NCBI RefSeq assembly: GCF_013085465.1
Contig: NZ_CP049838.1
Location: forward strand, 2,294,001-2,358,000
Source of the DNA: Streptomyces asoensis
Lineage (GTDB): Bacteria > Actinomycetota > Actinomycetes > Streptomycetales > Streptomycetaceae
Length of the DNA stretch: 64,000 nucleotides
Reading direction: 5' to 3'
The notes beneath the pieces are model-generated. The model did no database searches, was not told the DNA's origin, and worked only from the letters and a program-made list of their open reading frames with translations. The position numbers and the translations under genes were made by a program. Every line of letters starts with the position of its first letter. The stretch's first letter is position 1. This document shows positions 15,783 to 36,932 of this stretch, in pieces.

Positions 15783-15949
15783 GAAAGGGCTCCCTCAGAT
15801 GCGACGGCTGTCGGCTTTGCGTCACCTCAAGGATGCGGGCAGAAAGGCTTCCCGAGACGAGCGCACGCCGTCAGGGTAGCCGGGACGGAGGCCTTATGGT
15901 CAGGGGCGTCCACGGGACGGACGGGCGTCGCGGCCTTTCACAGGGCGGC

Positions 15950-21481: not shown

Positions 21482-22654
21482 TCAGCCGAGCGACTCCACG
21501 ACCGCCCGTACCGCCTCGATGTCCGTCAACTCCTCGCGGCGGACGATCAGTTCGCGGCCCAGCAGCAGTGCGCGCCGGGAGGCGGGCACCGGGTCCGGCA
21601 GGGTCGTCAGGTCGGTCAGATGGGCGAAGCCGATGATGCGGCGGACGATCTCCGTGCCGGCGTAGCCGACGGAGTCGGTCCAGACGCGGCGCAGGAAGCG
21701 GTCGAGATAGGCGTCGTCGAAGAAGGTGTCGACGCGGGTCGGCCACAGACGGCGGAACTCGGCCTCGAACGCCTCCCAGGAGAGGCGGAGCTGCTCGGCG
21801 TGGTCGGACGGCGCGCCCAGTGCCCGCGCCCGTTCCTCGGAGACCAGCACATTGGCCCAGTAGAGGCCGAGGTCGTAGCCGATGGGGCCGACGAAGGAGA
21901 ACTCGGGGTCGAAGACCCGTACCACGGGCGCGTCTTCGCGTCTGCCGACCATCACGCTGCCGGTGTGCAGGTCGCCGTGGAGGAGGGCCTGGGCGCTGGT
22001 CATGAAGGTGTGGCGGAGGTCGGCGACCTCGGTGCGCAGCCGGGTGTCGGCGCGGAAGGCGGCGGCCAGGTCGTCGAGGCCGGGGTGCCAGTGGTTGTGT
22101 TCGTGCTCGACGTACGGCTCGGACAGCACGACGTCTTCGGTGATCTTGCACAGCTCCGGGCTGACGGAGGCGGCGATCAGCGCCTTGCGTTCGGCGGACG
22201 GCATGCCGAAGTCACTGGTGGCGAAGGAGAACTGGGCGACGAACTCGCCGATCCTCGCCGAGGTGTGCGGGCCGTAGGCCGCTCCCTCGTTGAGCAGCGT
22301 GCGCAGCACCTCGAGGTCGGACATGTCCTCCATGACGAGGGCGTAGTTCTCGGGGTCGTAGCCGTGGACCGCCGGGATCTTGTCGGGGGCGACCTTGGCG
22401 ACCTGCTCGTAGGCCCGGGCCTCGGCGTCGGCGCGGTCGGGGTTCATCGGCCAGGAGGGGCCGGCGACGCGGACCCAGGGCAGAGCCTGCTTGACGGCGA
22501 GGCTGCGGGTGCCGTCGGCGGAGGAGGCCAGGAACACCCGGTTCATGTTGCCGTCCGACACCTCCCGGACCCGGATGTCCGCGAGGTCCTCCCAGTGGCC
22601 CCGCTCGCCCAGGTAGGCGGGGATGTCGTCGGTCTCCAGGATGCGGTAGCCCAT
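21482..22654 (-). CDS. mtnK: S-methyl-5-thioribose kinase
   Basis: Phosphorylates methylthioribose to methylthioribose-1-phosphate, the entry step of methionine salvage from MTR. The 390-residue protein has the APH-like kinase fold with EVSDGNMNRVF near 31-41, catalytic Asp228 in LLHGDLHTGSVMV and metal-binding Asp249 in DPEFSFVGPIGYDLG, all characteristic of MtnK. It is the last gene of a four-gene minus-strand operon behind an ABC importer, 14 bp from the permease, so the imported ligand is probably MTR itself. Confidence 0.92.
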   Translation of the reverse strand: MGYRILETDDIPAYLGERGHWEDLADIRVREVSDGNMNRVFLASSADGTRSLAVKQALPWVRVAGPSWPMNPDRADAEARAYEQVAKVAPDKIPAVHGYDPENYALVMEDMSDLEVLRTLLNEGAAYGPHTSARIGEFVAQFSFATSDFGMPSAERKALIAASVSPELCKITEDVVLSEPYVEHEHNHWHPGLDDLAAAFRADTRLRTEVADLRHTFMTSAQALLHGDLHTGSVMVGRREDAPVVRVFDPEFSFVGPIGYDLGLYWANVLVSEERARALGAPSDHAEQLRLSWEAFEAEFRRLWPTRVDTFFDDAYLDRFLRRVWTDSVGYAGTEIVRRIIGFAHLTDLTTLPDPVPASRRALLLGRELIVRREELTDIEAVRAVVESLG

Positions 22655-22668
22655 GGTCGTGAACTCCC

Positions 22669-23715
22669 TTATGCGGTGCGGCGCTTGGACAGGGTGAAGC
22701 TGAAGACCAGGGCGAGGATCAGCACGGTGCCCTCGACGACGTCCTGCGTGTAGTACGGCAGGCCCTTGATGGTCAGGCCGGTGGTGATGATGCCGATGAG
22801 CACCGCGCCGAGGGCGGTGCCCCAGACGTTCGGCCGGCCACGGCCCAGGACGGAGGTGCCGACGAGTGCCACCGCCACCGCCTCCAGCAACTGGGAGGTA
22901 CCGGCCGACACATCGCCCTGGCCGATCCTGGACGCCAGGATGAGGCCGCCCACCGAGGCGAGGACGCCGGAGATGACGTAGGCCAGGGCGCGGTAGGCGC
23001 CGACCCGGATGCCGGCCAGCCGGGAGGCCTCGGGGTTGGCGCCGATGGCGTACAGGACGCGGCCCCAGCGGGTGCGGGCGAGGAAGACCCAGGCGGCGAT
23101 CGTCAGACCGCCGAAGATCAGCACGGAGATCGGGATGCCGAGGACCGTGCCGCGGTCGATCTTCAGGAAGCCGTCGGTGAACCTGCCGGGTGCGGTCGAT
23201 CCGTCGGACATCGTCATGCCCGGAGTGATCGACTGGCCGTCGACGAGGATCAGCTTGCTGCCCTGGATGACGAACATCGTGCCGAGCGTGGCCAGCATGT
23301 CGGGGATCTTCAGTACGACGATCAGCAGGGCGTTGAGCAGGCCCGCGAGCGCGCCCGCCACCAGCACCGCGAGGATCGCGACCGTGCCGACCTGGTTGAA
23401 GACGACCATCGTCTGCGCGGCGACGGAGACGCCCAGTCCGGCGACGGCCCCGACGGACATGTCCATTCCGCCGACGGCCATGGTGAGCGTGACACCGAGA
23501 CCGAGGATCGCGGCGACGGAGACGTACCGCAGGGTGTCGAGCAGGGTGGCCGACTCGCGGAAGGAGCCCTCGCTCAGCGCGAAGTACAGGAACAGCGCGA
23601 CCGTCACGAAGATGAAGCCGTACTTGATCACGGCGTTCTGGACGCGCGCCGCGGTGCCGGTCGCCGGCCGGATCGCCGCCTTGGTGGGGACCTCGGTGCT
23701 CTGGGTGGTGGTCAT
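22669..23715 (-). CDS. Sugar-type ABC permease (RbsC/BPD_transp_2 family)
   Basis: A 348-residue membrane permease with about ten hydrophobic segments and the family motifs GVTLTMAVGGMDMSVGA and ANPEASRLAGI (EAA-like loop). It starts at ATG 23713-23715 with AGGAA upstream. It pairs with the RbsA-like ATPase and the lipoprotein encoded upstream and precedes mtnK. Candidate substrate is methylthioribose, by context only. Confidence 0.9.
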   Translation of the reverse strand: MTTTQSTEVPTKAAIRPATGTAARVQNAVIKYGFIFVTVALFLYFALSEGSFRESATLLDTLRYVSVAAILGLGVTLTMAVGGMDMSVGAVAGLGVSVAAQTMVVFNQVGTVAILAVLVAGALAGLLNALLIVVLKIPDMLATLGTMFVIQGSKLILVDGQSITPGMTMSDGSTAPGRFTDGFLKIDRGTVLGIPISVLIFGGLTIAAWVFLARTRWGRVLYAIGANPEASRLAGIRVGAYRALAYVISGVLASVGGLILASRIGQGDVSAGTSQLLEAVAVALVGTSVLGRGRPNVWGTALGAVLIGIITTGLTIKGLPYYTQDVVEGTVLILALVFSFTLSKRRTA

Positions 23716-23752: not shown

Positions 23753-25291
23753 TCAGACGGACGCCGAGATGGTCTGGATCACGCGGTCACGTTCCGCGTC
23801 TTCGCCGTACGCGTCGAGGTGGACCTCACCGGCCGCGAGGACGACGACCCGGTCGGCCACCTCCAGGACCTCGTCGACGTCGGCGGACAGGACGAGGACG
23901 GCCGTGCCCTCGGCGGCGAGGGCACGGGCCCGGCGGCCGATGTCGCGCCGGGCGCCGATGTCCACGCCTCGGAACGGTTCGTCCAGGATGAGGACACGCG
24001 GGGTGTGGGCGAGCCAGCGGCCGACGACGACCTTCTGCTGGTTGCCGCCGGACAGTTCCTCGACGGTGCTGTGCTCGTCGCGGGCGACGACACCGAGGGC
24101 GTCGATCGTCTCGCGGCCGAGGGCGTCCTCCTTCGGCCGGTTCATGAGACCCGCCCGGGAGAAGGACTTCAGGAACGGCAGCGAGATGTTCCGGGCGACC
24201 GACCAGCCGGGCACCAGGGCGTCGGCGTGCCGGTCCTCGGGGACGAGGTGGACGCCGGCACGGATGGCGTCGGAGGGGCGACGGGGCGCGTAGGCCGTGC
24301 CGTCCAGTTCGACGGTGCCGGTGGCGAAGGGTTCCGCGCCGAACAGGCCGCGGGCCAGCTCGGTCTTGCCCGCGCCCAGCAGGCCCACGACGCCGGTGAC
24401 CTCCCCGGCGCGCAGGTCGAGGTCGAGGGGGGTACGGCCGTCGAAGAGGCGGACGCCGCGCAGCGAGAGGGCGACCTCCCCCTCGGCCCCTTCCCTGACG
24501 GGCCGGGCGGTCGTCACCTCCTGGGACTGGGCCAGCATCGCGCGCAGGGCCGCGTCCCAGTCGAAGGGCCTGGCCTGGTCCTCGGTGAGAAGACCGTCGC
24601 GCAGGACGACCAGCCGGTCGGCGAGCGCGTCGATCTCGCCGAGCCGGTGGGACACGTAGAGCACGGCGATGCCGTCCGCGCGCATCCTCTCGACGAGCGC
24701 GAACAGCCGCTGCGCCTCGGCGGCGGAGAGCGCGGAGGTCGGCTCGTCGAGGATGAGCAGGCGGGGGCGGGTCGCCAGCGCGCGGGCCAGGATCAGCAAC
24801 TGCCGGTCGGAGATGCCGAGTTCGCCGACATCCTGCTTGAGCACCGGGTCGCTCCAGTCCAGGTCGAGGCCGGCCTGGATCTCGCGGGCGCGGGCGAGCG
24901 TGCCGCGGCCGCTCAGGAACGGGTTGCCGCGTTTCTGCGCGAGCTCCTCGAAGACCAGGTTCTCGGCGACCGTGAGGCCGGGCACGATGCCCTCGCCGAT
25001 CCGCTGGTGCACCGTCTGGATGCCCAGCTGACGGGCGGCCAGCGGCGAGGCGAGGGCGACGGGCGTGCCGTCGACACGCACCTCTCCCCCGTGGTCCGTG
25101 TGGACGCCCGAAAGGATCTTGATCAGCGTGGACTTGCCGGCGCCGTTCGCGCCGAGCAGCGCGACGACGCTGCCCGGTGCGATGTCCAGCGTCACGGAGG
25201 CGAGCACCGTCTTGCCGCCGAAGGCCATGCTGACGTCGGTGAGACCGACCGCCGGGACGGCCCGCGAAGGGCTGGGCTCAGTGGGCGACAT
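23753..25291 (-). CDS. Sugar-type ABC ATPase with two nucleotide-binding domains (RbsA-like)
   Basis: A 512-residue tandem ATPase. Domain 1 has Walker A GANGAGKST and a divergent signature (VGELGISDRQLLILARAL); domain 2 has GLLGAGKTE and signature LSGGNQQKVVVG with Walker B VLILDEPFRGVD. It overlaps the end of the binding-protein gene by 14 bp, a sign of translational coupling. Works with the downstream permease. Confidence 0.92.
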   Translation of the reverse strand: MSPTEPSPSRAVPAVGLTDVSMAFGGKTVLASVTLDIAPGSVVALLGANGAGKSTLIKILSGVHTDHGGEVRVDGTPVALASPLAARQLGIQTVHQRIGEGIVPGLTVAENLVFEELAQKRGNPFLSGRGTLARAREIQAGLDLDWSDPVLKQDVGELGISDRQLLILARALATRPRLLILDEPTSALSAAEAQRLFALVERMRADGIAVLYVSHRLGEIDALADRLVVLRDGLLTEDQARPFDWDAALRAMLAQSQEVTTARPVREGAEGEVALSLRGVRLFDGRTPLDLDLRAGEVTGVVGLLGAGKTELARGLFGAEPFATGTVELDGTAYAPRRPSDAIRAGVHLVPEDRHADALVPGWSVARNISLPFLKSFSRAGLMNRPKEDALGRETIDALGVVARDEHSTVEELSGGNQQKVVVGRWLAHTPRVLILDEPFRGVDIGARRDIGRRARALAAEGTAVLVLSADVDEVLEVADRVVVLAAGEVHLDAYGEDAERDRVIQTISASV

Positions 25292-26375
25292 TCGAGATCC
25301 AGTCCGCGGTGGAGACCTGCGACAGGTTCAGCGCGGGCAGCGCCTCCCGCAGCTGGTCCATGTTCGCGATCTTCTTCTCGCGCAGGAAGTCCTGCGTGAT
25401 GGCGACGGCCGGGAACTCGACGGAGGTCTTGTTCAGCTGACCGGCCAGCTCCAGCGCGGTGGTGCGTACGACGGCCGCGCCGACGGCGGAAGGGTCGGTG
25501 CCCGCCGTGGCGACCCAGGGGCTGTCGGCGGCGGTCATCTGCTGGATGTCGGCGTTGGAGACGTCGGCGCCGAAGACCTTCACCTTGTCCTGGAGCTTCT
25601 TGTTCTGCACGGCGAGCACGGTGCCCTTGGCGAGCTCGTCGTAGGGCGCGAAGACGCCGGCCACGTCGGAGTGCTGGGTGAGCGCGGCGGAGACGAGGGG
25701 AACGTTGTCGGTGGCCGTGGAGTCGGTGACCTTGCCGACCTTGAACTGCTGCTTCCAGGCCTGCGAGGTCACCGTCGACTTCCAGACGCTGTCGCGCTTG
25801 TCGAGGGCCGCGTAGCCGGCGACGTTGACGTAGCCGACCTTGGCGTTCTTGCCGACCTCCTTGGCCATCACGTCGAGGACGGCCTGGGCCATGCTCGCGT
25901 CGTCCTGCTTGGTGGAGACGACACCCGCGGTGGCGGTCTCGACGTCGTAGACGACGACCTTGATGCCCTTCTTCACGGCCTTGTCGATCTCCGGCTGGAT
26001 GGTCGCCGGGAAGCCGTGGTCGATGATGATCGCCTTCGCCCCGGAGTTGATCGCCGAGGACAGGTCGGTGGCCTGCTTGGCGTTGTCGGCCTGGGCGTCG
26101 TACACGGTCAGGTCGATACCGAGCGCCTTGGCCTGGGCCTTCGCGCCGTTGCCCCACTGCTCGAAGTAGTCGCCGGCGCCGCTCTGCCGGACCAGGGCCA
26201 CCTTGACCGCGCCCGCGCTGAAGGGGGCGGGCTTCTTGCCGGTGGCGGCGGAGGCCGAGGCGGCGGAGTTGCCGGTGTCCTTCGAGGCGTCCGTGGACTG
26301 CGCGCAGCCGGAGAGGACCAGGGCGGAGACGGAGGCCAGCGAGAGCGCGGCGAGAGGCAGACGGACACGGGACAT
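25278..26375 (-). CDS. Periplasmic-type sugar-binding lipoprotein of the MTR-linked importer
   Basis: A 365-residue Peripla_BP_4 protein. The frame is open further upstream, but ATG 26375 with GGAG gives a normal signal peptide and lipobox LSGC. The body resembles RbsB-like proteins (KVALVRQSGAGDYFEQW; DHGFPATIQPEIDKAVKKG). First structural gene after a short leader ORF at 26527-26598. Ligand probably methylthioribose given mtnK at the operon end; ribose, autoinducer-2 or another pentose are alternatives. Confidence 0.88.
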   Translation of the reverse strand: MSRVRLPLAALSLASVSALVLSGCAQSTDASKDTGNSAASASAATGKKPAPFSAGAVKVALVRQSGAGDYFEQWGNGAKAQAKALGIDLTVYDAQADNAKQATDLSSAINSGAKAIIIDHGFPATIQPEIDKAVKKGIKVVVYDVETATAGVVSTKQDDASMAQAVLDVMAKEVGKNAKVGYVNVAGYAALDKRDSVWKSTVTSQAWKQQFKVGKVTDSTATDNVPLVSAALTQHSDVAGVFAPYDELAKGTVLAVQNKKLQDKVKVFGADVSNADIQQMTAADSPWVATAGTDPSAVGAAVVRTTALELAGQLNKTSVEFPAVAITQDFLREKKIANMDQLREALPALNLSQVSTADWISNVAH

Positions 26376-26486
26376 GAGGGGCTCCAGGTGCGGGGTGACG
26401 CAGAGGGGTGGGGCGGAGGGGAGGCGAAGCAGGGGTGCGTGAGCCCGGAGCGAAGGACGGGAACAAGCCACCGCGCACGGCGGGGA

Positions 26487-26507
26487 GCGCCCCGGGAACG
26501 GGGGCGC
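26487..26507 (-). promoter_or_regulatory. Possible attenuator hairpin
   Basis: GCGCCCC (26487-26493) pairs with GGGGCGC (26501-26507) around a 7-nt loop, 20 nt past the leader stop on the minus strand. Its position suits an attenuator or anti-terminator controlled by leader translation; not proven. Confidence 0.4.
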
Positions 26508-26526
26508 GTCGGAGCTCCGGGAGGGG

Positions 26527-26598
26527 TCAGCGACAGCTGGCAGTGGTCGACCGGAGCAAGTCCACGTACAGCCGCCGCACGAGCAGCAGCGTCTTCAT
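26527..26598 (-). CDS. Cys-containing leader peptide before the MTR importer operon
   Basis: A 23-residue ORF ending LVRRLYVDLLRSTTASCR-stop. The RRxxVDLxR...CR pattern is that of small actinobacterial leader peptides found before sulfur-metabolism genes; a Cys codon close to the stop lets ribosome stalling report cysteine supply. No Shine-Dalgarno is seen, but the predicted transcription start falls on the ATG, so it is probably a leaderless message. The binding-protein gene begins 152 bp downstream with a hairpin between. Confidence 0.75.
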   Translation of the reverse strand: MKTLLLVRRLYVDLLRSTTASCR

Positions 26599-26604
26599 AT
26601 GCAG

Positions 26605-26634
26605 ATCATGAGAACGATTCCAGCCACCCGTCAA
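26605..26634 (-). promoter_or_regulatory. Promoter for the leader and MTR importer operon
   Basis: On the minus strand TTGACG (complement of 26629-26634), an 18-bp spacer and CATGAT (complement of 26605-26610). Transcription would start about 7 bp on, at or next to the leader ATG at 26598. Confidence 0.6.
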
Positions 26635-26749
26635 AGAAATGGACGCAGCATCTCAATATTCAAGACAACGATTACGTCACAGGCGGTGGACGTGCCGCCG
26701 GGAGTTACCATCACGGAACCGGCATCCGACCCGGCACAGCGAGGCCCCG

Positions 26750-26860
26750 ATGACGACTCCCCCACTCTCGGCTCCGCTCGAGCGGGGGGACCCCCGCCGC
26801 GCGAACGCGCTGCGCATGCCCTGCATGCGGCGCTGTCCCGGCGCGCCGTGTCGCGGCTGA
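26750..26860 (+). CDS. Cys-rich leader peptide before mtnD-mtnC-mtnB
   Basis: A 36-residue ORF (or 14 residues from the internal ATG at 26816) ending RMPCMRRCPGAPCRG-stop with three Cys codons in the last twelve. GAGG lies before the first ATG. Its RCPGAPCRG end resembles the RCAGDGCRG end of the leader at 30199. It stops 93 bp before mtnD. The amino-terminal half lacks the usual RRxxVDL pattern, so it is a less certain member than the other two leaders. Confidence 0.6.
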   Translation: MTTPPLSAPLERGDPRRANALRMPCMRRCPGAPCRG

Positions 26861-26953
26861 GTGACCGTCCCCGCCGCCCGCCTCTCCCTTCTCCGCCCCG
26901 TCCGATCCGTCTCGGTATCCGGACATCCCTTACAGAATCCTGGAGTTGCTTCC

Positions 26954-27553
26954 ATGACGCTGCTGACGACCTGGTCCGAGTCCGGCCCGGAGACCCTGGT
27001 CCGCCGCACCTCCGACCCCGTCGAGATCGCCGCGGCCCTCAAGCCGCTGGGCGTGCGCTACGAACAGTGGCCGGTCCGCGCGGACGTGCCGTTCGACGCC
27101 GACAGCGAGACGGTGTTCGCGGCGTACGGCCCGGAGATCGAGAAGCTGAACGCGGAGGAGGGCTTCACCACCGTCGACGTCCTCGGTCTGCACCCGAGCG
27201 ACGACCCGGAGTTCCCGGCGAAGGCGAAGGCGGCCCGCGAGAAGTTCCTCCAGGAGCACACCCACGACGACGATGACGAGGTCCGCTTCTTCGTCTCCGG
27301 CTCCGGCATCTTCTACCTGCACGTGAACGGCGAAGTGCACGCGGTCTTCTGCGAGAAGGGCGATCTGCTGGGCGTGCCGCGCGGCACCACCCACTGGTTC
27401 GACATGGGCACCGAGCCCTCGTTCACGGCGATCCGTTTCTTCCACGAGGAGGACGGCTGGATCGGCAGCTTCACCGGCTCCACCATCGCCGGCCGCTTCC
27501 CGGACTACGACACGATCGCAGCCGGCTACGAGGCCGACCGGGCCGCCGCGTGA
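26954..27553 (+). CDS. mtnD: Acireductone dioxygenase
   Basis: Oxidises the acireductone intermediate to 2-keto-4-methylthiobutyrate (with Fe) in methionine salvage. The frame is open upstream, but ATG 26954 with TGGAG gives the standard 199-residue cupin. Metal ligands His102, His104, Glu109 (HTHDDDDE) and His147 (GTTHWFD) are present. Its TGA overlaps the GTG of mtnC by 2 bases within GTGA, so translation is coupled. Confidence 0.95.
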
Positions 27554-28284
27554 GCGTGCGGGGCCTGACGTACGACGTGGACGCCGTGGTGCTCGACATC
27601 GAGGGCACCACGAGCGCCACGGGCTTCGTGGTGGACGTGCTGTACCCGTACTCGCGCGCCCGCTTCGCCGAGCTGCTCACCGAGCGGGCCGAGGAGCCCG
27701 TGGTGGCACGGGCGATCGAGCAGGTGCGGGAGCTGACGGGCGAGCCGGACGCCGACGCGGCCACGATCGAGAAGACGCTGAACGCCTGGCTCGACGAGGA
27801 CCGCAAGGCGACCCCGCTGAAGAGCCTCCAGGGCGTCATCTGGTCCGAGGGCTTCGCGCGCGGCGACCTCGTCTCGCACTTCTACGACGACGTCGTGCCG
27901 CGGCTGCGCGCCTGGCACGCGGCGGGGCTGCGACTGTACGTGTACTCGTCGGGTTCGGTGTCCGCCCAGCGGGCGTGGTTCACCAACAGCCCGGCGGGCG
28001 ACCTCACCGCGCTCCTCTCCGGGCTGTACGACACCGAGAACGCCGGCCCCAAACAGGAGCCGGAGTCGTACCGCCGTATCGCCGGGTCGACCGGCGTGCC
28101 GGCGATACGGCTGCTCTTCCTCTCCGACCGGCCGGGGGAGCTGGACGCGGCCCGCGAGGCCGGCTGGCACGCGGTCGGGATCCGGCGGCCGGGAGAACCG
28201 TATTTCCAGCAGGGCGTCGGCGACCACGCGCAGGCGGGGGCGTTCGACGAGATCACCGTCAGCAATTCCAGGAGCACCTCATGA
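27550..28284 (+). CDS. mtnC: Enolase-phosphatase E1
   Basis: A HAD enzyme that enolises and dephosphorylates 2,3-diketo-5-methylthiopentyl-1-phosphate. The 244-residue protein has nucleophile motif LDIEGTTS (Asp16, Glu18 instead of the usual second Asp, as in the E1 family), YVYSSGSV for motif II, the motif-III lysine in GPKQEP and [13 protein letters not shown] for motif IV. Overlaps both neighbours by GTGA and ATGA. Confidence 0.95.
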
Positions 28285-28889
28285 CCGCCGACCTCACCAC
28301 ACTCGACCTGGAGGAGGCGGGGGCGGTCCTCGCCGCCGAGTCCGCCCGGTTCGCCTCCTTCGGCTGGATGCGCGGCACCTCCGGCAACCTCTCGGTGGTC
28401 CTCGCCCGCGACCCGCTGCGGCTCGCGGTCACGGCGAGCGGCCACGACAAGGGTGAACTGACCCCCGCGGACGTGGTGCTGGTCGACGGGAACGGCGCCG
28501 CCGTGCACGAGGGCAAGCCGTCCGCCGAGGCCGAACTGCACGCGCGCGTGGCCGCGCTGACCGGTGCGGGCGCGGTCGTGCACGTGCACACGGTGGCCTC
28601 CGTGGCGCTCGGCCACCGGCACCCGGGCGGGATCGTCTTCAAGGACATCGAGATGCTCAAGGGCGTCGGCCAGCCGGCGCACGACGTCGAGGTGACCCTG
28701 CCGGTCATCGCCAACAGCCAGGACATGAAGGTCCTCGGCGACCGGCTGGAGGCGGCCCGCGAACCCCGGATGCCCGCGGTGGTCGTGGCCGGGCACGGCC
28801 TGTACGTGTGGGGCGACACCCCGCGCCAGGCCCGTCACCACACCGAGGTCGTCGAATGGCTCCTGGAGCTGGAGCTGACGCGGCGCTGA
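28281..28889 (+). CDS. mtnB: Methylthioribulose-1-phosphate dehydratase
   Basis: Dehydrates methylthioribulose-1-phosphate to the diketo compound used by MtnC. The 202-residue class II aldolase-fold protein has GTSGNLSVV, the zinc ligands His101 and His103 (VVHVHTVASVALGH), Glu85, and a third His in VVAGHGLYVWG. Start ATG overlaps the mtnC stop (ATGA). Final gene of mtnD-mtnC-mtnB; convergent with mtnA across a strong hairpin. Confidence 0.94.
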   Translation: MTADLTTLDLEEAGAVLAAESARFASFGWMRGTSGNLSVVLARDPLRLAVTASGHDKGELTPADVVLVDGNGAAVHEGKPSAEAELHARVAALTGAGAVVHVHTVASVALGHRHPGGIVFKDIEMLKGVGQPAHDVEVTLPVIANSQDMKVLGDRLEAAREPRMPAVVVAGHGLYVWGDTPRQARHHTEVVEWLLELELTRR

Positions 28890-28907
28890 CCACGCGAGAC
28901 ACGCGAG

Positions 28908-28951
28908 ACACACCGAAGGCCACGGTCCCTCGACCATGGCCTTCGGTGTGT
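28908..28951. terminator. Bidirectional terminator between mtnB and mtnA
   Basis: 19-nt arms at 28908-28926 and 28933-28951 with one mismatch and a 6-nt loop, between convergent genes. Confidence 0.85.
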
Positions 28952-28979
28952 CCGGCGCAGCCGGTGTGCTCGGCGCAGC

Positions 28980-30011
28980 TCAGCGCAGCCGGTCCCCGGG
29001 CAACTCCCCCGCGGACACCTCCAGTACGCCCCGCTCGGTCACCAGGCCCGTCACCAGCCGGCCCGGCGTGACGTCGAACGCCGGGTTGTGGCCGCGCGAC
29101 TCGGCGGGCGCCGTCCGCACCCCGCCCCACTCCAGCACCTCGTCCTCGCCGCGGAGTTCGATGTGGATGGCGGCGCCGTCCGGCGTCGAGAGATCGACCG
29201 TGGTGGTGGGCGCCGCCACCAGGAACGGGATGCCCGCGTCGGCGCAGGCGAGGGCGACCCCCACCGTGCCGACCTTGTTGGCGGTGTCGCCGTTGGCCGC
29301 GATGCGGTCGGCGCCCACGATCGCCGCGTCGACCTCGCCGCGCAGGATGGTGCCGGCGGCGGCCCCGTCCGCCTGGACGAAGTGCGGGATGCCCTCCTGG
29401 ACCAGCTCCCAGGCGGTCAGGCGCGACCCCTGGAGCAGCGGACGGGTCTCGTCGGCGTAGACGACCTCGAGGCGTCCGCGCGCGTGCAGTTCGCGGATGA
29501 CACCGAGAGCGGTGCCCCAGCCGGCGGTGGCCAGCGCGCCGGTGTTGCAGTGCGTCAGGATCCGCAGCGGGCGGTCCGCGTCGATCCGCTTCAACAGCCA
29601 GTCCGCGCCGAACGCGCCCATCGCGCGGTTCGCCTCGACGTCCTCGCGCTGCACCGCGGCAGCCTCCGCCAGGACCGCGTCGAGCCCGTCGTCGAAGCGG
29701 GTCATGACCCGGTCCACGCACACCATGAGGTTCACGGCGGTCGGGCGGGCCTCGCGGACGCGGGCGACGGCCTCGCGCGTCTCGCTCTCCGTCCAGCCCT
29801 CACGCGCGCCCTGGAGCAGCGCGATCGCGACACCGTACGCGCCCGCCGCGCCGATCGCGGGGGCGCCGCGTACGACCAGCCGCTGGATCGCGTCGACCAG
29901 GGTGTCCACATCGTGGACATCGACGGTCGTGGTGCGGTGCGGGAGAGCTGTCTGGTCGATCAGCGCGAGGCCGGTTCCGGTCCACTCGACGGCGCGCAGT
30001 TCCTGGGACAT
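28980..30011 (-). CDS. mtnA: S-methyl-5-thioribose-1-phosphate isomerase
   Basis: Converts methylthioribose-1-phosphate to methylthioribulose-1-phosphate, the step feeding MtnB. The 343-residue protein has RGAPAIGAAGAYG, catalytic Cys155 (LTHCNTGALAT) and Asp235 (VGADRIAANGDTANK), diagnostic against the related eIF2B family. The reading frame stays open far upstream, antisense to the neighbouring ABC operon; I start at ATG 30011 with AGGAGC upstream. Divergent from the nucleoside importer operon, convergent with mtnB. Confidence 0.95.
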   Translation of the reverse strand: MSQELRAVEWTGTGLALIDQTALPHRTTTVDVHDVDTLVDAIQRLVVRGAPAIGAAGAYGVAIALLQGAREGWTESETREAVARVREARPTAVNLMVCVDRVMTRFDDGLDAVLAEAAAVQREDVEANRAMGAFGADWLLKRIDADRPLRILTHCNTGALATAGWGTALGVIRELHARGRLEVVYADETRPLLQGSRLTAWELVQEGIPHFVQADGAAAGTILRGEVDAAIVGADRIAANGDTANKVGTVGVALACADAGIPFLVAAPTTTVDLSTPDGAAIHIELRGEDEVLEWGGVRTAPAESRGHNPAFDVTPGRLVTGLVTERGVLEVSAGELPGDRLR

Positions 30012-30198
30012 AGCGGGACGCTCCTGATGTTCCAATAGTGTTCGACACCGTACATGACCTCGAAGAACCCTCGAGGAACGGTGGGCGAACCACAGTTCGA
30101 GACACCCCGGCGGATGTCCGGAAACGAGTGTTAGAGTCCAGCACCTGCATCCGCAGGGCGATACCAGCATCCCGCAGAACGAGACGAAGGGGGAAGAC

Positions 30199-30267
30199 AT
30201 GCCGCTGCTCACCAGGCGCCGCTTCCTCGACTTCGGCCGCTGCGCCGGCGACGGCTGTCGCGGCTGA
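30199..30267 (+). CDS. Cys-containing leader peptide before the nucleoside-type importer operon
   Basis: A 22-residue ORF containing LTRRRFLDFGRCAGDGCRG before the stop, preceded by GAAGGGGG. It fits the RRxxLDxxR...CR pattern of actinobacterial Cys leader peptides and shares its RCxGxxCRG end with the leader before mtnD. The binding-protein gene begins 122 bp downstream; only weak hairpins lie between. Confidence 0.75.
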   Translation: MPLLTRRRFLDFGRCAGDGCRG

Positions 30268-30389
30268 GTCCGTCCCCTCGGCCCTCCCCCGCGGTCTCTG
30301 CCGCACCGAGCACCGTCGCTCACCTCACCCCGCCGTGCGCGCACCTCAGCATCGTGATGCGCCTCTCGGCATACCCGGAAGGTTCCCCG

Positions 30390-31445
30390 ATGCCCCGCAG
30401 ACACCGCCGCTCCGTGCAGCTCGCCGCCCTCGCGACCGGCACCGTGCTCCTCGCCACCGCCTGCAACGCCGCCGCGAAGAAGGACGACTCCGCCACGAGC
30501 GCGAGCGGCGGCAGCGGCAAGTCCTTCACGCTCGTCACCCCCGACGCCGTCGGCCAGAACGAGTTCCTCAAGCTCGCGGTCACCGGCATCAAGAGCGCGG
30601 CCGAGCAGCACGACGGGACCCAGAAGGTCTACGAGTCCACCGACACCGCCTCCCAGCAGCAGAACGTGCAGGCCGCGGTGGACGCCAAGCCGGACGTCAT
30701 CGTCCTCGTCGGCTTCGAGTTCGCCGACATCGTCGCCCAGCAGGCCGAGAAGAACCCGAGCCAGCAGTTCCTGATCATCGACGCGTGCACCACCAAGACC
30801 TTCAAGAACGTCAGCTGCGCGGTCTTCCGTGAGCACGAGGGCGTCTACCTCGCCGGCGCCGAGGCGGGCCTGCTGAGCAAGTCCGGCAAGGTCGGCGCGG
30901 TCGACGTGCTCGACACGCCCCAGTTCCGCCGCTACAGCGACCCGTTCGCGGCCGGCGCCAAGAAGGTCGCCGCCAAGACGGAGACGTCGACCCGCTTCGT
31001 CGGCGGCCAGTCCCCCTTCGACGACTCGGCCCGCGCCAAGGAGCAGGCGAACACCCTGCTCGCCAAGGGCTACGACCAGATCATGGCGGCCGCGGCGGCC
31101 GGCAACTACGGCGTCTTCGAGGCGGCGAAGGCCAAGGGCGCGTTCGCGTACGGCGTCGACGTCAACCAGTGCGCCTCGGCGCCCGGCACGGTCGTCGACA
31201 ACGTGATCAAGCGCACGGACATCGCCGTCGAGAAGGGCATCGAGTCGGTCCTCGGCGGCACGACCGGCACGTCCGTCTCGTACGGCCTCAAGGAGGGCGG
31301 CATCAGCCTGACCGGCCTGGAGGACGGCGTGGACACGTCCAAGTGCGTGATCGCCGACCACAAGGACGTCCTGACGAAGGTCGAGGCGCTGCGCGACCAG
31401 ATCGTGTCCGGAGAGCTGAAGGTCGATGACCCGGCCGCCAGCTGA
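30390..31445 (+). CDS. BMP-family (PnrA-like) nucleoside-binding lipoprotein
   Basis: A 351-residue basic membrane protein family binding protein. ATG 30390 with GGAAGG gives a signal peptide with lipobox ATAC. The body has KSFTLVTPDAVGQNEF, then ANTLLAKGYDQIMAAAAAGNYG and YGVDVNQCASAPG regions of PnrA-like proteins, which bind purine nucleosides. First structural gene after the leader ORF. Given the downstream phosphorylase and deaminase, methylthioadenosine or other purine nucleosides are the likely ligands (inference). Confidence 0.9.
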   Translation: MPRRHRRSVQLAALATGTVLLATACNAAAKKDDSATSASGGSGKSFTLVTPDAVGQNEFLKLAVTGIKSAAEQHDGTQKVYESTDTASQQQNVQAAVDAKPDVIVLVGFEFADIVAQQAEKNPSQQFLIIDACTTKTFKNVSCAVFREHEGVYLAGAEAGLLSKSGKVGAVDVLDTPQFRRYSDPFAAGAKKVAAKTETSTRFVGGQSPFDDSARAKEQANTLLAKGYDQIMAAAAAGNYGVFEAAKAKGAFAYGVDVNQCASAPGTVVDNVIKRTDIAVEKGIESVLGGTTGTSVSYGLKEGGISLTGLEDGVDTSKCVIADHKDVLTKVEALRDQIVSGELKVDDPAAS

Positions 31446-32982
31446 ACCCGAGAGCGGCGCGGGCGGGACCGGCGTCGCCGTCGAGCTCCGGGGAATTACC
31501 AAGCGGTTTCCCGGCACGCTCGCCAACGACGCCGTCGACCTGACCGTCCGTCACGGTGAGATCCACGCCCTGATGGGCGAGAACGGCGCGGGCAAGTCCA
31601 CGCTGATGTCGGTCCTGTACGGCATGGAGCGCGCCGACGCCGGGTCGATCCGGATCGACGGGCGGGAGGTGCGTTTCACGAGCCCCGCCGACGCCATGGC
31701 CGCGGGGCTCGGCATGGTCCACCAGAGCTTCAAGCTGTTCGACTCGCTGACGGTCGCCGAGAACGTCGTCTACGCCGCCGAGCCGCGCCGCTTCGGCCTG
31801 GTGGACCGGGCGGCGGCCCGCCGCCGGGTGCGTGAACTCGCCGAGGAGCACGGGCTGGCCGTCGACCCGGACGCCCGGGTGGGCGACCTGCCGGTCGGGC
31901 TGCGTCAGCGCGTGGAGATCCTCAAGCTGCTGCACCGGGGCGCCCGTACGCTGATCCTCGACGAGCCGACGGCCGTGCTCACCCCGGCCGAGGCGGACAC
32001 CCTGTTCGGCGTGCTCAAGTCGCTGACCGCGCAGGGCCGTACGGTCGTCCTCGTCACCCACAAACTGCGCGAGGTGCTGGAGGGCAGCGACCGGGTGACG
32101 GTCCTGCGGGACGGCCGGGTCGCCGCCCGGCTGGTCACCTCCGACACGACGGCCGACGAGATCGCCGCCGCGATGACCGGCCGCGCGGTGGAACTGGACC
32201 GTGTCCACGCACCGGGCACGCCCGGTGAGGCAGTGCTGCGGGTAACCGGTTTCAGCACCGATTCCGTCCACGATGTGGACCTCACCGTGTACGCCGGTGA
32301 GATCGTCGGTATCGCGGGCGTCGCCGGGAACGGCCAGAGCGAGCTGGTCGAGGCGCTGGCCGGACTGCGTCCGGTCGCCGCCGGACAGGTCACCCTCCAG
32401 GGCGACGACATCACGCACGCCTCGGCCACCGAGCGGCGCGTGAAGGGACTCGCCTACGTCCCCGAGGACCGGCACGCGGTCGGTACGGCCCCCGCCGCCT
32501 CGGTCGCGGACAACCTGGCGATGGGCCACCACCGCACCACCCTCTCGGCCCGCGGCCTGCTGCCGCCCGCGGCCGTCCGCGCGCACGCCCGGCGGCTCGT
32601 CGAGCGCTTCGGCATCAAGGCGGCGACCACCGAGGTCCCCGCCTCCGCGCTGTCCGGCGGCAACCTCCAGAAGCTGCTCATCGGCCGCGAACTCGCCCAT
32701 GACGCACCGCTGTTGCTGGTCGAACAGCCGACCCGGGGCGTCGACATCGGCGCCATCCAGAACATCCACGACCAGCTGATCGCCTACCGCGACGCCGGTC
32801 ACGCCGTCCTCCTCGTCTCGGCCGAGCTCAGCGAGATCCGCGGCCTCGCGGACCGTGTGCTCGTCATGTACGAGGGCCGGGTCGCGGCCTCGTACACCAA
32901 GGAAGAGGCGGACGAGCGGACGCTGGGCCTCGCGATGGCGGGCGCCCCCGTGGAGGCCACCGACATGAACCCACTGACATGA
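31426..32982 (+). CDS. Nucleoside-type ABC ATPase with two nucleotide-binding domains
   Basis: A 518-residue tandem ATPase like those of nupABC/yufO systems. Domain 1 has Walker A GENGAGKST, signature LPVGLRQRVEILK and Walker B LILDEPTAVL; domain 2 has the degenerate GVAGNGQSEL P-loop and signature LSGGNLQKLLIGREL usual for this group. It overlaps the binding-protein gene by 20 bp. Confidence 0.93.
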   Translation: MTRPPAEPESGAGGTGVAVELRGITKRFPGTLANDAVDLTVRHGEIHALMGENGAGKSTLMSVLYGMERADAGSIRIDGREVRFTSPADAMAAGLGMVHQSFKLFDSLTVAENVVYAAEPRRFGLVDRAAARRRVRELAEEHGLAVDPDARVGDLPVGLRQRVEILKLLHRGARTLILDEPTAVLTPAEADTLFGVLKSLTAQGRTVVLVTHKLREVLEGSDRVTVLRDGRVAARLVTSDTTADEIAAAMTGRAVELDRVHAPGTPGEAVLRVTGFSTDSVHDVDLTVYAGEIVGIAGVAGNGQSELVEALAGLRPVAAGQVTLQGDDITHASATERRVKGLAYVPEDRHAVGTAPAASVADNLAMGHHRTTLSARGLLPPAAVRAHARRLVERFGIKAATTEVPASALSGGNLQKLLIGRELAHDAPLLLVEQPTRGVDIGAIQNIHDQLIAYRDAGHAVLLVSAELSEIRGLADRVLVMYEGRVAASYTKEEADERTLGLAMAGAPVEATDMNPLT

Positions 32983-34025
32983 CACGCATATCCGGAGCCC
33001 TGCGCTCCCCCCTCACCTTCTCGGTCCTCGCGGGCCTCGTCATCGGCGCGCTGTTCCTGCTCGGCACCGGCGCGGATCCGGTCACGGCGTACGAGGCCGT
33101 GGTGACCGGCGCGCTCGGCGCCGACGGCATCGGCTCGACCCTGACCACCGGCACCAGCGTGCTCGGTCTGGCGCTCGCGCTGGCGATCCCGCTGCGGGCC
33201 GGGCTGATCAACCTCGGCGGCGACGGGCAGATGGTGCTCGGCGGGATCACGGCCGCCGTGACCGGTCTCTACTCGCCGCTCCCCGCCCCCCTCACCGTGG
33301 CCCTGGCCCTGCTGGCCGGCCTGGCCGCGGGCGCCGGGTACGCCGTCCTGGCCGCCCTGTGCGAGAACCATCTCGGGGTCCCGCTGCTGGTCAGCAGCTT
33401 GCTGCTCAGCTATCCGGCGGTGTCGCTCGCCTCCTACCTGGCGCGCTACCCGCTCAAGGAGCCGGGCTCCAGCCTGCCCCAGACCCGTGCGCTGCCGGAC
33501 GGGGTGGCACTGCCCGCCTTCGGCGACTCCACGGTCACCCTCGGGCTCGTCCTCGTCGCGCTCGCCGCTGCCGCGTACTGGTTCACCGACAAGCGCACCG
33601 CCGTCGGCTACGAGATCCGCATGACGGGCCTCAACCCCCGCTTCTCCGCCTACGCGGGCGTCGAACGCCGGGGCCTGACCCTGAAGTTGATGGCGCTCTC
33701 CGGCGGCCTCGCCGGACTCGTGGGCGCCATCGGCGTACTGAGCTTCCCCTACCGCTTCGTGGACGGCTCGCTCACCGCCCCCGGCTACACCTGGACGGGC
33801 CTCACGGCGGCCCTGCTCGCCGCCGCGGCTCCGCTGGGCACGGTGGTCGCCGCGTTGTTCTTCGCCGTCCTCCAGGTCGGCGGGCTGGCGATGGAGCGCA
33901 CCACCGAGGTGCCGCGCGAACTGACCCAGGTGCTCCAGGCCATCGTGATCGTGTTCCTCGCGGCCCGGCTGCGCTTCCCCAGCCGCTGGTTCGGCCGTCG
34001 CACCCGGGAAAGCGAGGCGGTGTGA
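32979..34025 (+). CDS. Nucleoside ABC permease subunit 1
   Basis: A 348-residue membrane permease (BPD_transp_2). Motifs: LRAGLINLGGDGQMVLGG after the early segments and GLNPRFSAYAGVERRG as the ATPase-contact loop. Start ATG overlaps the ATPase stop (ATGA). Confidence 0.9.
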   Translation: MTRISGALRSPLTFSVLAGLVIGALFLLGTGADPVTAYEAVVTGALGADGIGSTLTTGTSVLGLALALAIPLRAGLINLGGDGQMVLGGITAAVTGLYSPLPAPLTVALALLAGLAAGAGYAVLAALCENHLGVPLLVSSLLLSYPAVSLASYLARYPLKEPGSSLPQTRALPDGVALPAFGDSTVTLGLVLVALAAAAYWFTDKRTAVGYEIRMTGLNPRFSAYAGVERRGLTLKLMALSGGLAGLVGAIGVLSFPYRFVDGSLTAPGYTWTGLTAALLAAAAPLGTVVAALFFAVLQVGGLAMERTTEVPRELTQVLQAIVIVFLAARLRFPSRWFGRRTRESEAV

Positions 34026-34891
34026 TGTTCCTCGACTCCGATCTCCTCATGTCGGCGCTGCGCGCCCTCACCCCGATCCTGCTGGCGGCCCTCGGCGGCG
34101 CCCTGTGCGAGCGCGCCGGGGTCTTCAACATCGGCCTCGAGGGCATGATGCTGATGGGCTGCTTCACCTCCGTGGCGACCAGCTGGTTCACCGGCAGCCC
34201 CTGGCTCGGCGTCCTGGCGGCGGCCCTCGCGGCGGCCGCGTACTCGCTGATCCTGGCCGTGGGGGCGGTCACCCTGCGCGGGGACGCGGTGGTCCTCGGC
34301 ATCGCCATGAACCTGCTGGCGGTCGGCCTGACCAGCTTCCTGCTGCGCACGGTCTTCGGCGTGCAGGGCACCTTCGACGATCCGTCCCTCGCCGGGCTGC
34401 CGCTGATCGGTGGCTTCACCCCGCTCGCGTACCTGTCGTGGGCGGCGGTCGCGGTCGCCGCCCTGCTGCTGTCGCGGCATGTGTGGGGGCTCCGGCTGCG
34501 CGGGGTCGGCGAGGCGCCCGACGCGGCGGCCACCCTCGGGGTGAGCCCGGCGAAGTACCAGTACGGCGCGATCCTGCTGTCGGGAGTGCTGTGCGGACTC
34601 GCGGGCGCCCAGCTCGCCCTCGGCAACGTCACGTTGTTCACGGAGAACATGACGGCGGGGCGTGGTTGGATCGCTGTCGTGGCCGTCATGCTGGGCCGCG
34701 CCGCGCCCCTGGGCGTCCTGCTCGCCGCGCTGCTGTTCGGGCTCGCCGAAGCGGCCGGGTTCCGCCTCCAGGGTCTCGGCCTGCCGCAGCAGGCGACCGA
34801 CGCCGCGCCCTACGTCGTCACGCTCGGCGCCCTGTTCCTCACGACGGCCCGCCGCCGTCGCCGCCCCCGTACCACCGGAGCCGTCCAATGA
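34025..34891 (+). CDS. Nucleoside ABC permease subunit 2
   Basis: A 288-residue permease that heterodimerises with the upstream one. Start ATG 34025 shares its A with the preceding TGA. It has CERAGVFNIGLEGMMLMG and LRGVGEAPDAAATLGVS loops. The longer open frame upstream is a shadow inside permease 1. Confidence 0.9.
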   Translation: MFLDSDLLMSALRALTPILLAALGGALCERAGVFNIGLEGMMLMGCFTSVATSWFTGSPWLGVLAAALAAAAYSLILAVGAVTLRGDAVVLGIAMNLLAVGLTSFLLRTVFGVQGTFDDPSLAGLPLIGGFTPLAYLSWAAVAVAALLLSRHVWGLRLRGVGEAPDAAATLGVSPAKYQYGAILLSGVLCGLAGAQLALGNVTLFTENMTAGRGWIAVVAVMLGRAAPLGVLLAALLFGLAEAAGFRLQGLGLPQQATDAAPYVVTLGALFLTTARRRRRPRTTGAVQ

Positions 34892-35640
34892 CGCAGGACC
34901 TGCTGCCCGTCACCCGCATCCCGCGCACCGGTCTCCCGGCGCACGCCGTGGTCGTCGGCGACCCGGCCCGCGCCGCGGCCGTCGCCGCGCTCCTCGACGG
35001 CGCCGAGGAGGTCTCGTACCACCGCGAGTACCGGGTGTTCAGCGGAAGCTGGAAGGGCGTGCCGGTCGTCGTCGCCTCGCACGGGGTGGGTGCGCCGGGC
35101 GCGATCCTGCTCTTCCAGGAGCTGGCGGACGCGGGCGTGCGCACCTTCCTGCGGTTCGGCACCGCGGGCGCGATGAAGCCGGGTATCGGGGACGGCGACC
35201 TGGTCATCGCGGAGGCGGCCGTCCGCGACGACGGCGTCACCCATCAGCTGCTGCCCCCGGAGTACCCGGCGGTGTCCGCGCCCGAGGCGGTCCTCGCCCT
35301 CCAGCGCGCGGCCCGCCAGGCCGGCGCCCCGCACCACCGGGGCGTCGTGTGGACCCGGGCGGCCTTCCAGCCGGGTCTGCTCCCGCTCTTCTCCTACGCC
35401 GGCGCCGGGCTCGCCGCCATCGAGATGGAACTGTCCGCGCTGCTGGTCACGGCCTCGCTGCGCGGCCTGGTCGCGGGCGGTGTGCTGGTGATCGACGGGG
35501 CGAACGCCGACGAGCTGGTCGACGAGCAGACGACCGGTGGCTACGACCCGCACCGGGAGGTCGTCGCGGCCGGCGTCGAGCGGGGCGCGGTGGTGTCCCT
35601 GGACGCGCTGCGGCTGCTGGCGGAAGGTGAGCAGGCGTGA
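34888..35640 (+). CDS. Nucleoside phosphorylase (uridine phosphorylase/PNP family)
   Basis: A 250-residue phosphorolytic enzyme. It shows the phosphate loop HAVVVGDPARAAAV, SHGVGAPGAILLFQEL, RFGTAGAMKPGIGDGDL and the ribose-binding AIEMELSAL. This COG2820-type fold uses uridine in enterics, but here it is followed by an MTA/SAH-deaminase-like gene and preceded by a nucleoside importer, so methylthioinosine or inosine is a plausible substrate. Overlaps both neighbours (ATGA before, GTGA after). Family sure, substrate open. Confidence 0.85.
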   Translation: MTQDLLPVTRIPRTGLPAHAVVVGDPARAAAVAALLDGAEEVSYHREYRVFSGSWKGVPVVVASHGVGAPGAILLFQELADAGVRTFLRFGTAGAMKPGIGDGDLVIAEAAVRDDGVTHQLLPPEYPAVSAPEAVLALQRAARQAGAPHHRGVVWTRAAFQPGLLPLFSYAGAGLAAIEMELSALLVTASLRGLVAGGVLVIDGANADELVDEQTTGGYDPHREVVAAGVERGAVVSLDALRLLAEGEQA

Positions 35641-36932
35641 GCATCGACCTGCTGGTGCACGGCGGCGAGGTCCTGACGATGGACGACGCCGGAACCGTCG
35701 TACGGGACGGGGCGGTCGCGGTCCATGAGGGCGGCATCCTCGCCATAGGGCCGGCCCGCGAGCTGCGCGAGCGCTACACCGCCGCCGAGGAGATCGACGC
35801 CGCCGGCTGTCTCGTCCTCCCCGGGCTGATCAACACGCACACCCACCTCGCGATGACCCTGCTGCGCGGCCGCGCCGACGACGTCACCCTCCAGGGATTC
35901 CTGGAGCGGGTCCTGAAGTGGGAGGCGGAACTGCTGGCGCCGGAGAACGTGGCGGCGGCGGTGCGGCTGGCGGTCGCGGAGAGCCTGCGGGCCGGGGTGA
36001 CCTCGGCGCTGGACATGTACTGGTTCCACGAGGCGGCCGAGCGGGCGGCCCACGAGACGGGCTGGCGGCTGCACACCGGGCCCACCTTCATGGACGTGCC
36101 CGGGCCACCGGACGGCATCACGTACGAGGAGCGGCTCGGGTGGGCGCGACGCGACCTCGAGGCACGCGGGCCCGCCCGGCCCGGACACCGGCCGGTCGTC
36201 TTCGCGCACTCGACGTACACCCTCTCCCCCGGGCAGCTCACCGAAGTCTTCGCGCTGGCCCGGGAGTTCGGGGCGCTGGTGCACATCCACGCGGCCGAGA
36301 ACGCCACCGAGGTCGCCACCGTCGAGGTGCAGCACGGGAAGCGGCCGGTGGAGCTGCTGGACTCCCTCGGGCTGCTCGGCCCCGATGTGCTGCTCGCGCA
36401 CGCCGTCGACCTCACCGGGCCCGAGATCGCGGCGCTGGCCCGCACCCGCACCGCCGTCGCCCACTGTCCGGTGTCGAACCTGAAGCTGGGCTGCGGCATC
36501 GCACCCGTGCCGCGGCTGCTGAGCGCGGGCGTGACGGTGGGGCTGGGCACGGACGGCGCCGTCAGCTCCAACTCGCTGGACGTGCTGGGGGCCGTACGGC
36601 AGGCGGCGCTGGTGCACAAGGCGGCGGGCGATCCGACGGCGGTCGGCGCCGAGCAGGCCGTACGGATGGCGACGATCGAGGGCGCGCGGGCGCTCGGGCT
36701 CGGCGAGCAGCTCGGTTCGCTGGAGGCGGGCAAGCGGGCCGACCTGATCGTCCTCGACCTGGACGCACCGCATCTGCGGCCGCGCCACGACCCGTGGTCG
36801 ACGCTGGCGTACGCGGCGCACCCGTCGGACGTGCGGGACACCGTCGTCGACGGACGGGTGCTGATGCGCGATCGTGGGCTCACCACGGTCGACGAGCGGG
36901 CGGTGATCGCAGATCTGGAGGCACTGCTCTGA
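35637..36932 (+). CDS. MTA/SAH-deaminase-like amidohydrolase (SsnA/MtaD family)
   Basis: A 431-residue zinc amidohydrolase expected to deaminate a purine nucleoside or base. Metal ligands: His68 and His70 (INTHTHLAMT), His in HIHAAENATEV and LLAHAVDL, and Asp in LGTDGAVSSNS. LDMYWFHEAAERAA resembles the MTA/SAH deaminase subgroup. GTG start overlaps the phosphorylase stop. Together they would convert methylthioadenosine to methylthioinosine and then methylthioribose-1-phosphate. Guanine or other aminohydrolase activity is the main alternative. Confidence 0.82.
   Translation: MSIDLLVHGGEVLTMDDAGTVVRDGAVAVHEGGILAIGPARELRERYTAAEEIDAAGCLVLPGLINTHTHLAMTLLRGRADDVTLQGFLERVLKWEAELLAPENVAAAVRLAVAESLRAGVTSALDMYWFHEAAERAAHETGWRLHTGPTFMDVPGPPDGITYEERLGWARRDLEARGPARPGHRPVVFAHSTYTLSPGQLTEVFALAREFGALVHIHAAENATEVATVEVQHGKRPVELLDSLGLLGPDVLLAHAVDLTGPEIAALARTRTAVAHCPVSNLKLGCGIAPVPRLLSAGVTVGLGTDGAVSSNSLDVLGAVRQAALVHKAAGDPTAVGAEQAVRMATIEGARALGLGEQLGSLEAGKRADLIVLDLDAPHLRPRHDPWSTLAYAAHPSDVRDTVVDGRVLMRDRGLTTVDERAVIADLEALL

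Follow-up and report, generated by a model that had tools for sequence, protein, structure and literature searches.

Cysteine-responsive leader open reading frames (ORFs) are known from mycobacteria (Shell 2015, PMC4633059; Canestrari 2020, via PMC9031893, PMC9094748 and PMC13236596), and the mechanism of Canestrari 2020 is called translation attenuation in PMC13236596. Leaders of cys genes have been predicted in Mycobacterium, P. acnes and B. longum (Seliverstov 2005, PMC1262725); the available sections of that paper describe methionine operons without conserved RNA structures and name no Streptomyces cys leader. In S. lividans, metL, which lies before metNIQ and ends in RCMCRRMCAF, has been interpreted as a methionine leader (PMC8079986). 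Here we describe three short ORFs in a 64,000-nt stretch of the Streptomyces asoensis genome (assembly GCF_013085465.1, contig NZ_CP049838.1, positions 2,294,001 to 2,358,000; this whole stretch is hereafter the window, and coordinates are counted from its first nucleotide). ORF1 (26527-26598, minus strand; MKTLLLVRRLYVDLLRSTTASCR) precedes the genes of a proposed methylthioribose (MTR) importer, ORF2 (26750-26860, plus strand; MTTPPLSAPLERGDPRRANALRMPCMRRCPGAPCRG) precedes mtnDCB and ORF3 (30199-30267, plus strand; MPLLTRRRFLDFGRCAGDGCRG) precedes the genes of a BMP-type importer. We propose, with a probability of about 0.78, that ORF1, ORF2 and ORF3 are translated leaders that gauge charged Cys-tRNA through one UGU codon and raise the expression of three methylthio units when cysteine is short.

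How does this locus compare with the described systems? Like the mycobacterial leaderless ORFs, which attenuate by cysteine, the three ORFs are short, carry Cys near the stop and stand before sulfur genes, and ORF1 is probably leaderless as well. The mycobacterial leaders are reported to contain contiguous Cys codons and to precede cysteine-metabolic and other genes, whereas the leaders of this locus have between one and a few spaced Cys codons, with UGU fixed at one place, and stand before genes of methylthio salvage. A contiguous Cys run of the mycobacterial form is present in none of ORF1-3: ORF1 has a single Cys, ORF2 and ORF3 have spaced Cys in this genome (TGT codons at 26834-26836 and 26849-26851 in ORF2, last TGT at 30256-30258 in ORF3), and adjacent Cys pairs occur only in some orthologues. 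With the candidates of Seliverstov 2005 (PMC1262725) our ORFs have in common Cys codons near the stop and no conserved terminator hairpin, while the genes that follow differ. Also from a Streptomyces, the S. lividans metL (PMC8079986) carries Cys and Met residues close to its end and lies upstream of a methionine-related importer, again with no clear terminator; its sequence and target differ from those described here. Given its three Cys near the end, metL could itself be a leader that responds to cysteine. Relatives are known to have cysteine gauges of a similar kind, but we found none described for the methylthio salvage pathway: among the papers listed by a literature search, in which subscription papers were mostly outside coverage, none dealt with a cysteine leader of methionine salvage or with a UGU bias in leaders.

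The ORFs, their conservation, reading frame, UGU bias and gene content are established by comparison of loci, of which 30 came from a genus sample of 199 genomes (43 with mtnD) and 80 were the best of 132 contig relatives; the two sets overlap in species. Translation of the window confirmed the three ORFs that the initial annotation had placed before the MTR importer, mtnDCB and the nucleoside importer (the BMP-type importer of this text), and two of the peptides fit RRxx(V/L)Dxx(R)...CR, as it had stated. ORF1 is present in 77/77 loci that contain the importer gene, and ORF3 in 53 of the 59 that contain bmp. In the genus sample, where the ORF3 and importer searches scored only part of each genome's candidates, 17 of the 21 importer-bearing genomes gave an ORF3 match at E < 1e-8, always close upstream of the importer by coordinates. 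ORF2 was recognised by a first motif in 56 of 110 mtnD loci, by a second motif in 61 loci, the window among them (54 distinct sequences), and in 54 of the 77 importer-bearing loci. Of 98 distinct upstream regions, 46 contain both of its end motifs, at start-to-Cys distances of 48, 51, 57, 63, 66 and 99 nt, in frame in 46/46. Variation in ORF3 falls mainly at third positions (0.29/0.30/0.50 bits of entropy at the three codon positions; 1.47 and 1.54 bits in the flanks); the corresponding values for ORF1 are 0.12/0.01/0.11, against 0.69 and 1.31. Since ORF1 and ORF3 recur in this way and ORF2 keeps its frame throughout, the three short ORFs are, on comparative grounds, conserved genes and not chance occurrences. 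It is from the frame of ORF2 and the codon-position signal of ORF3 that we infer translation of the leaders. Two features noted earlier carry less weight. The ending RCxGxxCRG shared by ORF2 and ORF3 holds in this genome but is not a conserved common feature, the last codon of ORF3 being Arg in 39/54 and Gly in 7/54 distinct sequences and that of ORF2 being Gly in 44/54. A Cys within the last twelve codons is true of all three ORFs, but we rejected it as evidence in itself because 95 of the 275 window ORFs of 10-60 codons share that trait.

The evidence that bears most directly on what is sensed is the choice of codon, a feature absent from the initial annotation. Among distinct sequences, the final Cys is encoded by TGT in 69/69 for ORF1, 54/54 for ORF3 and 52/54 for ORF2. 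In ordinary genes TGT accounts for 208 of 1414 Cys codons (14.7%; 768 predicted genes in 80 of the loci), and in the non-coding DNA of the window for 285 of 788 TGY triplets. In ORF3, where third positions otherwise vary, the preference is confined to one place: the first Cys codon is TGT in only 25/54 sequences, and the extra Cys that adjoins the sensor codon in 12 ORF3 sequences is TGC every time. Every distinct sequence (69 of ORF1, 54 of ORF2 and 54 of ORF3) has a Cys at the aligned position, partly by construction as the search motifs demanded it; the codon choice was not so imposed. In bacteria, one tRNA (GCA) reads both UGU and UGC, the former by wobble. Because the preference is one among synonymous codons at a single place, the rare-UGU bias points to decoding by Cys-tRNA, and not to the Cys side chain, as the sensed event. 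The candidate sensor of ORF1 is the UGU of codon 22 (26533-26535, minus strand), and in each leader the sensor UGU would lie two or three codons before the stop.

Further instances of this codon are found in the leader family that ORF1 most resembles, NF042934 (cis_reg_atten, 'putative leader peptide'). ORF1 aligns to its full length (positions 1-19 of 19) and, like its members, shows RRxxVDLLR...CR, at 25.1 bits against a cut-off of 27 (second score 22.9). Besides ORF1, 17 places in the same genome match NF042934 down to E 0.13 (L111-L128 without L124). A Cys is found at the family's place in 16 of these 17 leaders, and by hand count it is TGT in 15 of the 16 (TGC in L122); as the surrounding bases differ between leaders, it is the TGT itself that is kept. 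Several of these leaders precede sulfur genes. When one downstream ORF was called per leader by highest third-position GC, 6/17 were followed by SfnG, over its cut-off, or by sulfite/nitrite-reductase-, sulfurtransferase-, TauD-, SsuA- and MoaD-like proteins, below theirs. In a further 5/17 the downstream product is possibly sulfur-related (two NtaA/DmoA-type monooxygenases, a flavin reductase, an amino-acid permease and a peptide/nickel-type binding protein). The ORF behind the MoaD-like gene resembles CysM by eye. One place, L120, matches the family at its cut-off (27 bits) without a Cys at the usual place, and ends in RVCSAIRFQD. Weaker matches to a model of ORF3 proved to be other leaders, at 13 loci (L157-L169) of which 12 were read (all but L168); in 11 of the 12, leaders of the type RRHIDxGRxSSAxCR in other Streptomyces precede one lipoprotein family that appears by eye to be substrate-binding.

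What are the implications of such a gauge for sulfur metabolism? Salvage leads to methionine and, by transsulfuration, from methionine to cysteine. Cysteine may serve as a general sulfur signal, and its shortage would raise MTR import and phosphorylation by the kinase, the mtnDCB enzymes, and the proposed import, deamination and phosphorolysis of methylthioadenosine (MTA). We tentatively suggest, at somewhat less than even odds, that a sulfur-status regulon sensed by one fixed rare UGU takes in methylthio scavenging and that ORF1 is a complete trp-like four-segment switch of a ribosome-binding site (RBS). If so, in streptomycetes a single cysteine gauge governs methylthio uptake and recycling along with other use of organic sulfur, the retention of a rare codon in these leaders is explained, and ORF1 offers a compact and directly testable case of ribosome-controlled RBS access in high-GC bacteria.

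The ORF1 region contains the parts that a switch of this kind would need. A promoter-like TTGACG-18-CATGAT lies at 26605-26634 on the minus strand (1 found, 0.1 expected), and its upstream block is conserved; since just 6 nt separate the -10 hexamer CATGAT from the ATG, ORF1 is probably leaderless. Four elements follow on the same strand. Element 1 (GCUCCGG, 26551-26557) is written within codons 14-16 of ORF1 (L L R) and pairs with element 2 (CCGGAGC, 26514-26520), just past the stop, in 97.5% of alignment cells. Element 3 (GCUCCGG, 26445-26451) can pair either with element 2 (93.0% of aligned cells) or with element 4 (GGAGC, 26381-26385; 90.9% of cells), which is the RBS of the importer's substrate-binding protein gene. 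We propose that control is translational. Upon finished translation of ORF1, element 1 would pair with element 2, leaving element 3 to cover the RBS; a ribosome stalled at the UGU of codon 22 would sit between elements 1 and 2, so that element 2 pairs with element 3 and element 4 is freed. The trp-type attenuator likewise has four segments, with pairings 1:2 and 3:4 or 2:3 and its sensor codon between the first two segments; in ORF1 the 3:4 pairing would cover an RBS rather than form a terminator. Near-identical sequences were dropped before folding (ORF1 from 69 to 57, ORF2 from 54 to 46, ORF3 from 54 to 42). CCGGAG(C/T) occurs in 53 of the 57 reduced ORF1 sequences (CCGGAG being the conserved core of element 2) at a near-constant distance 3' of the stop, and the full complement of element 2 recurs further down in 45 of these 53, against 5.8 expected in shuffled spacers. 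This complement lies 58-146 nt past the stop, and it fits the RBS GGAG in 40/40 of those among the 45 whose RBS was recognised by our script. When the alignment is slid by one to three columns, the pairings 1:2, 2:3 and 3:4 drop to 16-58%. A trp-like switch acting on the RBS is plausible, and the folding models lend it slight weight. A compensating GGAGU/ACUCC version of the switch in one clade is not claimed, as ACUCC occurs in other clades too.

Several observations weigh against this interpretation, or limit its reach. The ORF1 pairings 1:2, 2:3 and 3:4 show no covariation beyond that of shuffles, so the case for the switch is carried by complementary blocks that are conserved although the rest of the spacer can hardly be aligned, and RNAalifold did not pick these three helices. 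In the ribosome-position model, for which the script recognised an RBS in 50/57 ORF1, 38/42 ORF3 and 46/46 ORF2 sequences, the RBS of ORF1 has low openness in every state (0.110 with UGU in the A site, 0.069 with the stop in the A site, 0.081 without ribosome); the shift has the predicted direction but is small, and values scatter by about 0.1 from sequence to sequence. For ORF2 and ORF3 the model gave no shift in RBS openness, and exact 6-mers in the needed places were found in 3/20 leaders, namely ORF1 and two others (L121 and L122) in which they look like chance, but in neither ORF2 nor ORF3. ORF1 is near-invariant at every codon position, which does not allow constraint on the peptide to be separated from constraint on the RNA, and for this reason its TGT, taken alone, could reflect an RNA-level constraint; the last ten codons of ORF2 carry no codon-position signal (0.65/0.54/0.52). 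ORF1 falls short of the NF042934 cut-off, ORF2 and ORF3 are not among the listed matches of that family, and the methionine-salvage targets set all three apart. ORF3 reaches only 14.4 bits against NF042933 leader_Ms5788A (cut-off 45) and ORF2 resembles no leader family, so that ORF1 is close to a known family by sequence, ORF3 remotely like one and ORF2 like none. Among the 17 further leaders, the downstream ORF belongs to no family in five and is a ROK-type regulator in one. Finally, the loci come from related species in overlapping sets, and their counts are not independent. As to scope, ORF2 was unrecognised in 23/77 importer-bearing loci, and of the 33 mtnD loci in which no importer gene was found, 13 of which hold at most 1.5 kb upstream, one (L076, at a contig edge) has an ORF1-type end. 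Because of this 1/33, it is unlikely that cysteine controls Streptomyces mtn genes in general, and we disfavour the idea that every Streptomyces mtn locus has a cysteine leader. The reading in the initial annotation is thus supported in part, by the conserved ORFs before three salvage units, the Cys codon near each stop and the rare UGU. It is right in outline, and control by cysteine is its putative part.

How might a stalled ribosome be converted into gene expression? Classical transcription attenuation is not supported, as a simple scan found no intrinsic terminator in 26300-27000 or 30000-30450. This result is compatible with Rho-dependent attenuation, which keeps the cysteine signal and changes the output step: a C-rich, G-poor stretch past the leader would load Rho, and ribosomes stalled at UGU by the stop would mask it, allowing RNA polymerase to pass. 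The leader-to-gene spacers are indeed C-rich and G-poor in all three families (C 0.47-0.50, G 0.22-0.24; 57, 46 and 42 sequences) when set against 311 other upstream regions (C 0.39, G 0.30), and a role of Rho at mycobacterial cys leaders has been put forward in what was a rather weak prediction (PMC1262725). However, the C-minus-G excess of about 0.25 is high without being exceptional, since the 90% quantile for the control regions is higher (0.28), and ORF1 has a specific alternative in its four elements. We regard Rho as a possible but doubtful output for the three leaders together; ORF2 and ORF3, for which no ORF1-like switch was found, may use a Rho-dependent or other route. A fold common to the leaders was rejected as unconvincing: RNAalifold gave -20.5, -1.3 and -6.5 kcal/mol for alignments A1, A2 and A3, with two, zero and one pairs, respectively, staying paired through changes on both sides.

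Other explanations would move the sensed event away from Cys-tRNA. Arrest by the nascent peptide, in which RRxxVDxxR...C stalls the ribosome and a metabolite is sensed via the exit tunnel, with Cys decoding secondary, would account for the near-invariant ORF1 peptide (69 sequences), the strongly conserved ORF3 peptide and the recurrence of RRxxVD before many different genes. Yet a peptide effect has no use for a synonymous choice of UGU at one place, and ORF2 matches no leader family; we consider arrest unlikely. It is very improbable that the ORFs encode small functional proteins, or boost downstream translation by reinitiation, with no sensing involved: leader genes can raise expression in the latter way (PMC4833913), but the stop-to-start distances here are 55-216 nt, against a peak at 10-11 bp in that study, and both versions leave the UGU bias and the sulfur setting without explanation. 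Least credible of all is the sensing of methionine instead of cysteine. Methionine is the pathway product and Met codons occur inside ORF2 in this genome, but ORF1 has no Met past the start in 68/69 distinct sequences, ORF2 orthologues such as MTTPCATATRRCTDAACRG lack internal Met, and the constant residue is Cys. A gauge of charged Cys-tRNA remains the explanation that we prefer.

The genes behind the leaders place all three units plausibly in methylthio salvage, because unit 3 also encodes MTA-deaminase-like and phosphorylase-like enzymes. For the first genes of the units we adopted starts at 26375 (minus), 26954 (mtnD) and 30390 (bmp). In unit 1, on the minus strand, the ORF1 stop is followed after 151 nt by a ribose-type substrate-binding lipoprotein (25278-26375; PF13407, 1e-36; RbsB-like below cut-off) and then by an ATP-binding cassette ATPase (23753-25291; PF00005), a permease (22669-23715; PF02653) and mtnK, the S-methyl-5-thioribose kinase (21482-22654; TIGR01767, 421 bits, cut-off 275). 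From the presence of mtnK in the same unit we infer MTR as substrate, which would make this a unit of MTR import and kinase. In unit 2, on the plus strand, mtnD (acireductone dioxygenase, 26954-27553; PF03079, 5e-28; no NCBIfam match at 1e-10) precedes mtnC (acireductone synthase, 27550-28284; TIGR01691, 223 bits, cut-off 128) and mtnB (methylthioribulose-1-phosphate dehydratase, 28281-28889; TIGR03328, 175 bits, cut-off 137). mtnA (methylthioribose-1-phosphate isomerase, 28980-30011, minus strand; TIGR00512, 421 bits, cut-off 279) stands alone, on the strand opposite to unit 3.

Unit 3, on the plus strand, begins with a BMP/PnrA-type substrate-binding protein (30390-31445; PF02608, 5e-45), followed by an ATPase and two permeases (31426-34891; PF00005, with NF047929 and NF047928 below cut-offs). 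Downstream lie a nucleoside phosphorylase of the uridine/purine phosphorylase type (34930-35640, start approximate; TIGR01718, 143 bits, below the cut-off of 280; relatives in the PDB) and an amidohydrolase resembling MTA/S-adenosylhomocysteine deaminases (35637-36932; NF006549, 390 bits, below the cut-off of 540). The best solved relatives of the latter are 4dyk, 4gbd and 4f0r (E 9e-80 to 3e-77); 4f0r is named 5-methylthioadenosine/S-adenosylhomocysteine deaminase, and 4dyk and 4gbd we take to be Pseudomonas MTA deaminase. Unit 3 probably serves MTA uptake and conversion, feeding mtnA. For the importer itself, MTA is suggested by the adjoining enzymes, as the nearest named importer family, a putative B6 transporter, is far below cut-offs (60 bits against 400 for the binding protein). 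The importer occurs at E 1e-40 or better in 21 of the 199 genomes, and all 21 are among the 43 with mtnD. These genes and counts tie unit 3 to salvage more firmly than the initial annotation did, and the 21/21 disfavours ORF3 as a general nucleoside-importer leader apart from salvage. In Pseudomonas a route from MTA through methylthioinosine to methylthioribose 1-phosphate is known (PMC6302742). The phosphorylase-like and MTA-deaminase-like pair (34930-36932, plus strand) suggests an MTA-to-methylthioinosine route in Streptomyces.

Two minor features complete the picture of the window. The RBS of mtnD (GGAG; 26942-26952, plus strand) could pair with a CUUC three bases further on to give a short hairpin immediately 5' of the ATG, and by eye a similar hairpin is possible in many, not all, orthologues. 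A Streptomyces-metH RNA (RF03076, 95 bits) lies at 15780-15925 on the minus strand, directly upstream of an ORF of 1172 amino acids (12264-15782, minus strand) that is presumably metH, by its size and the RNA, and places a methionine-related cis element about 10 kb from the leaders.

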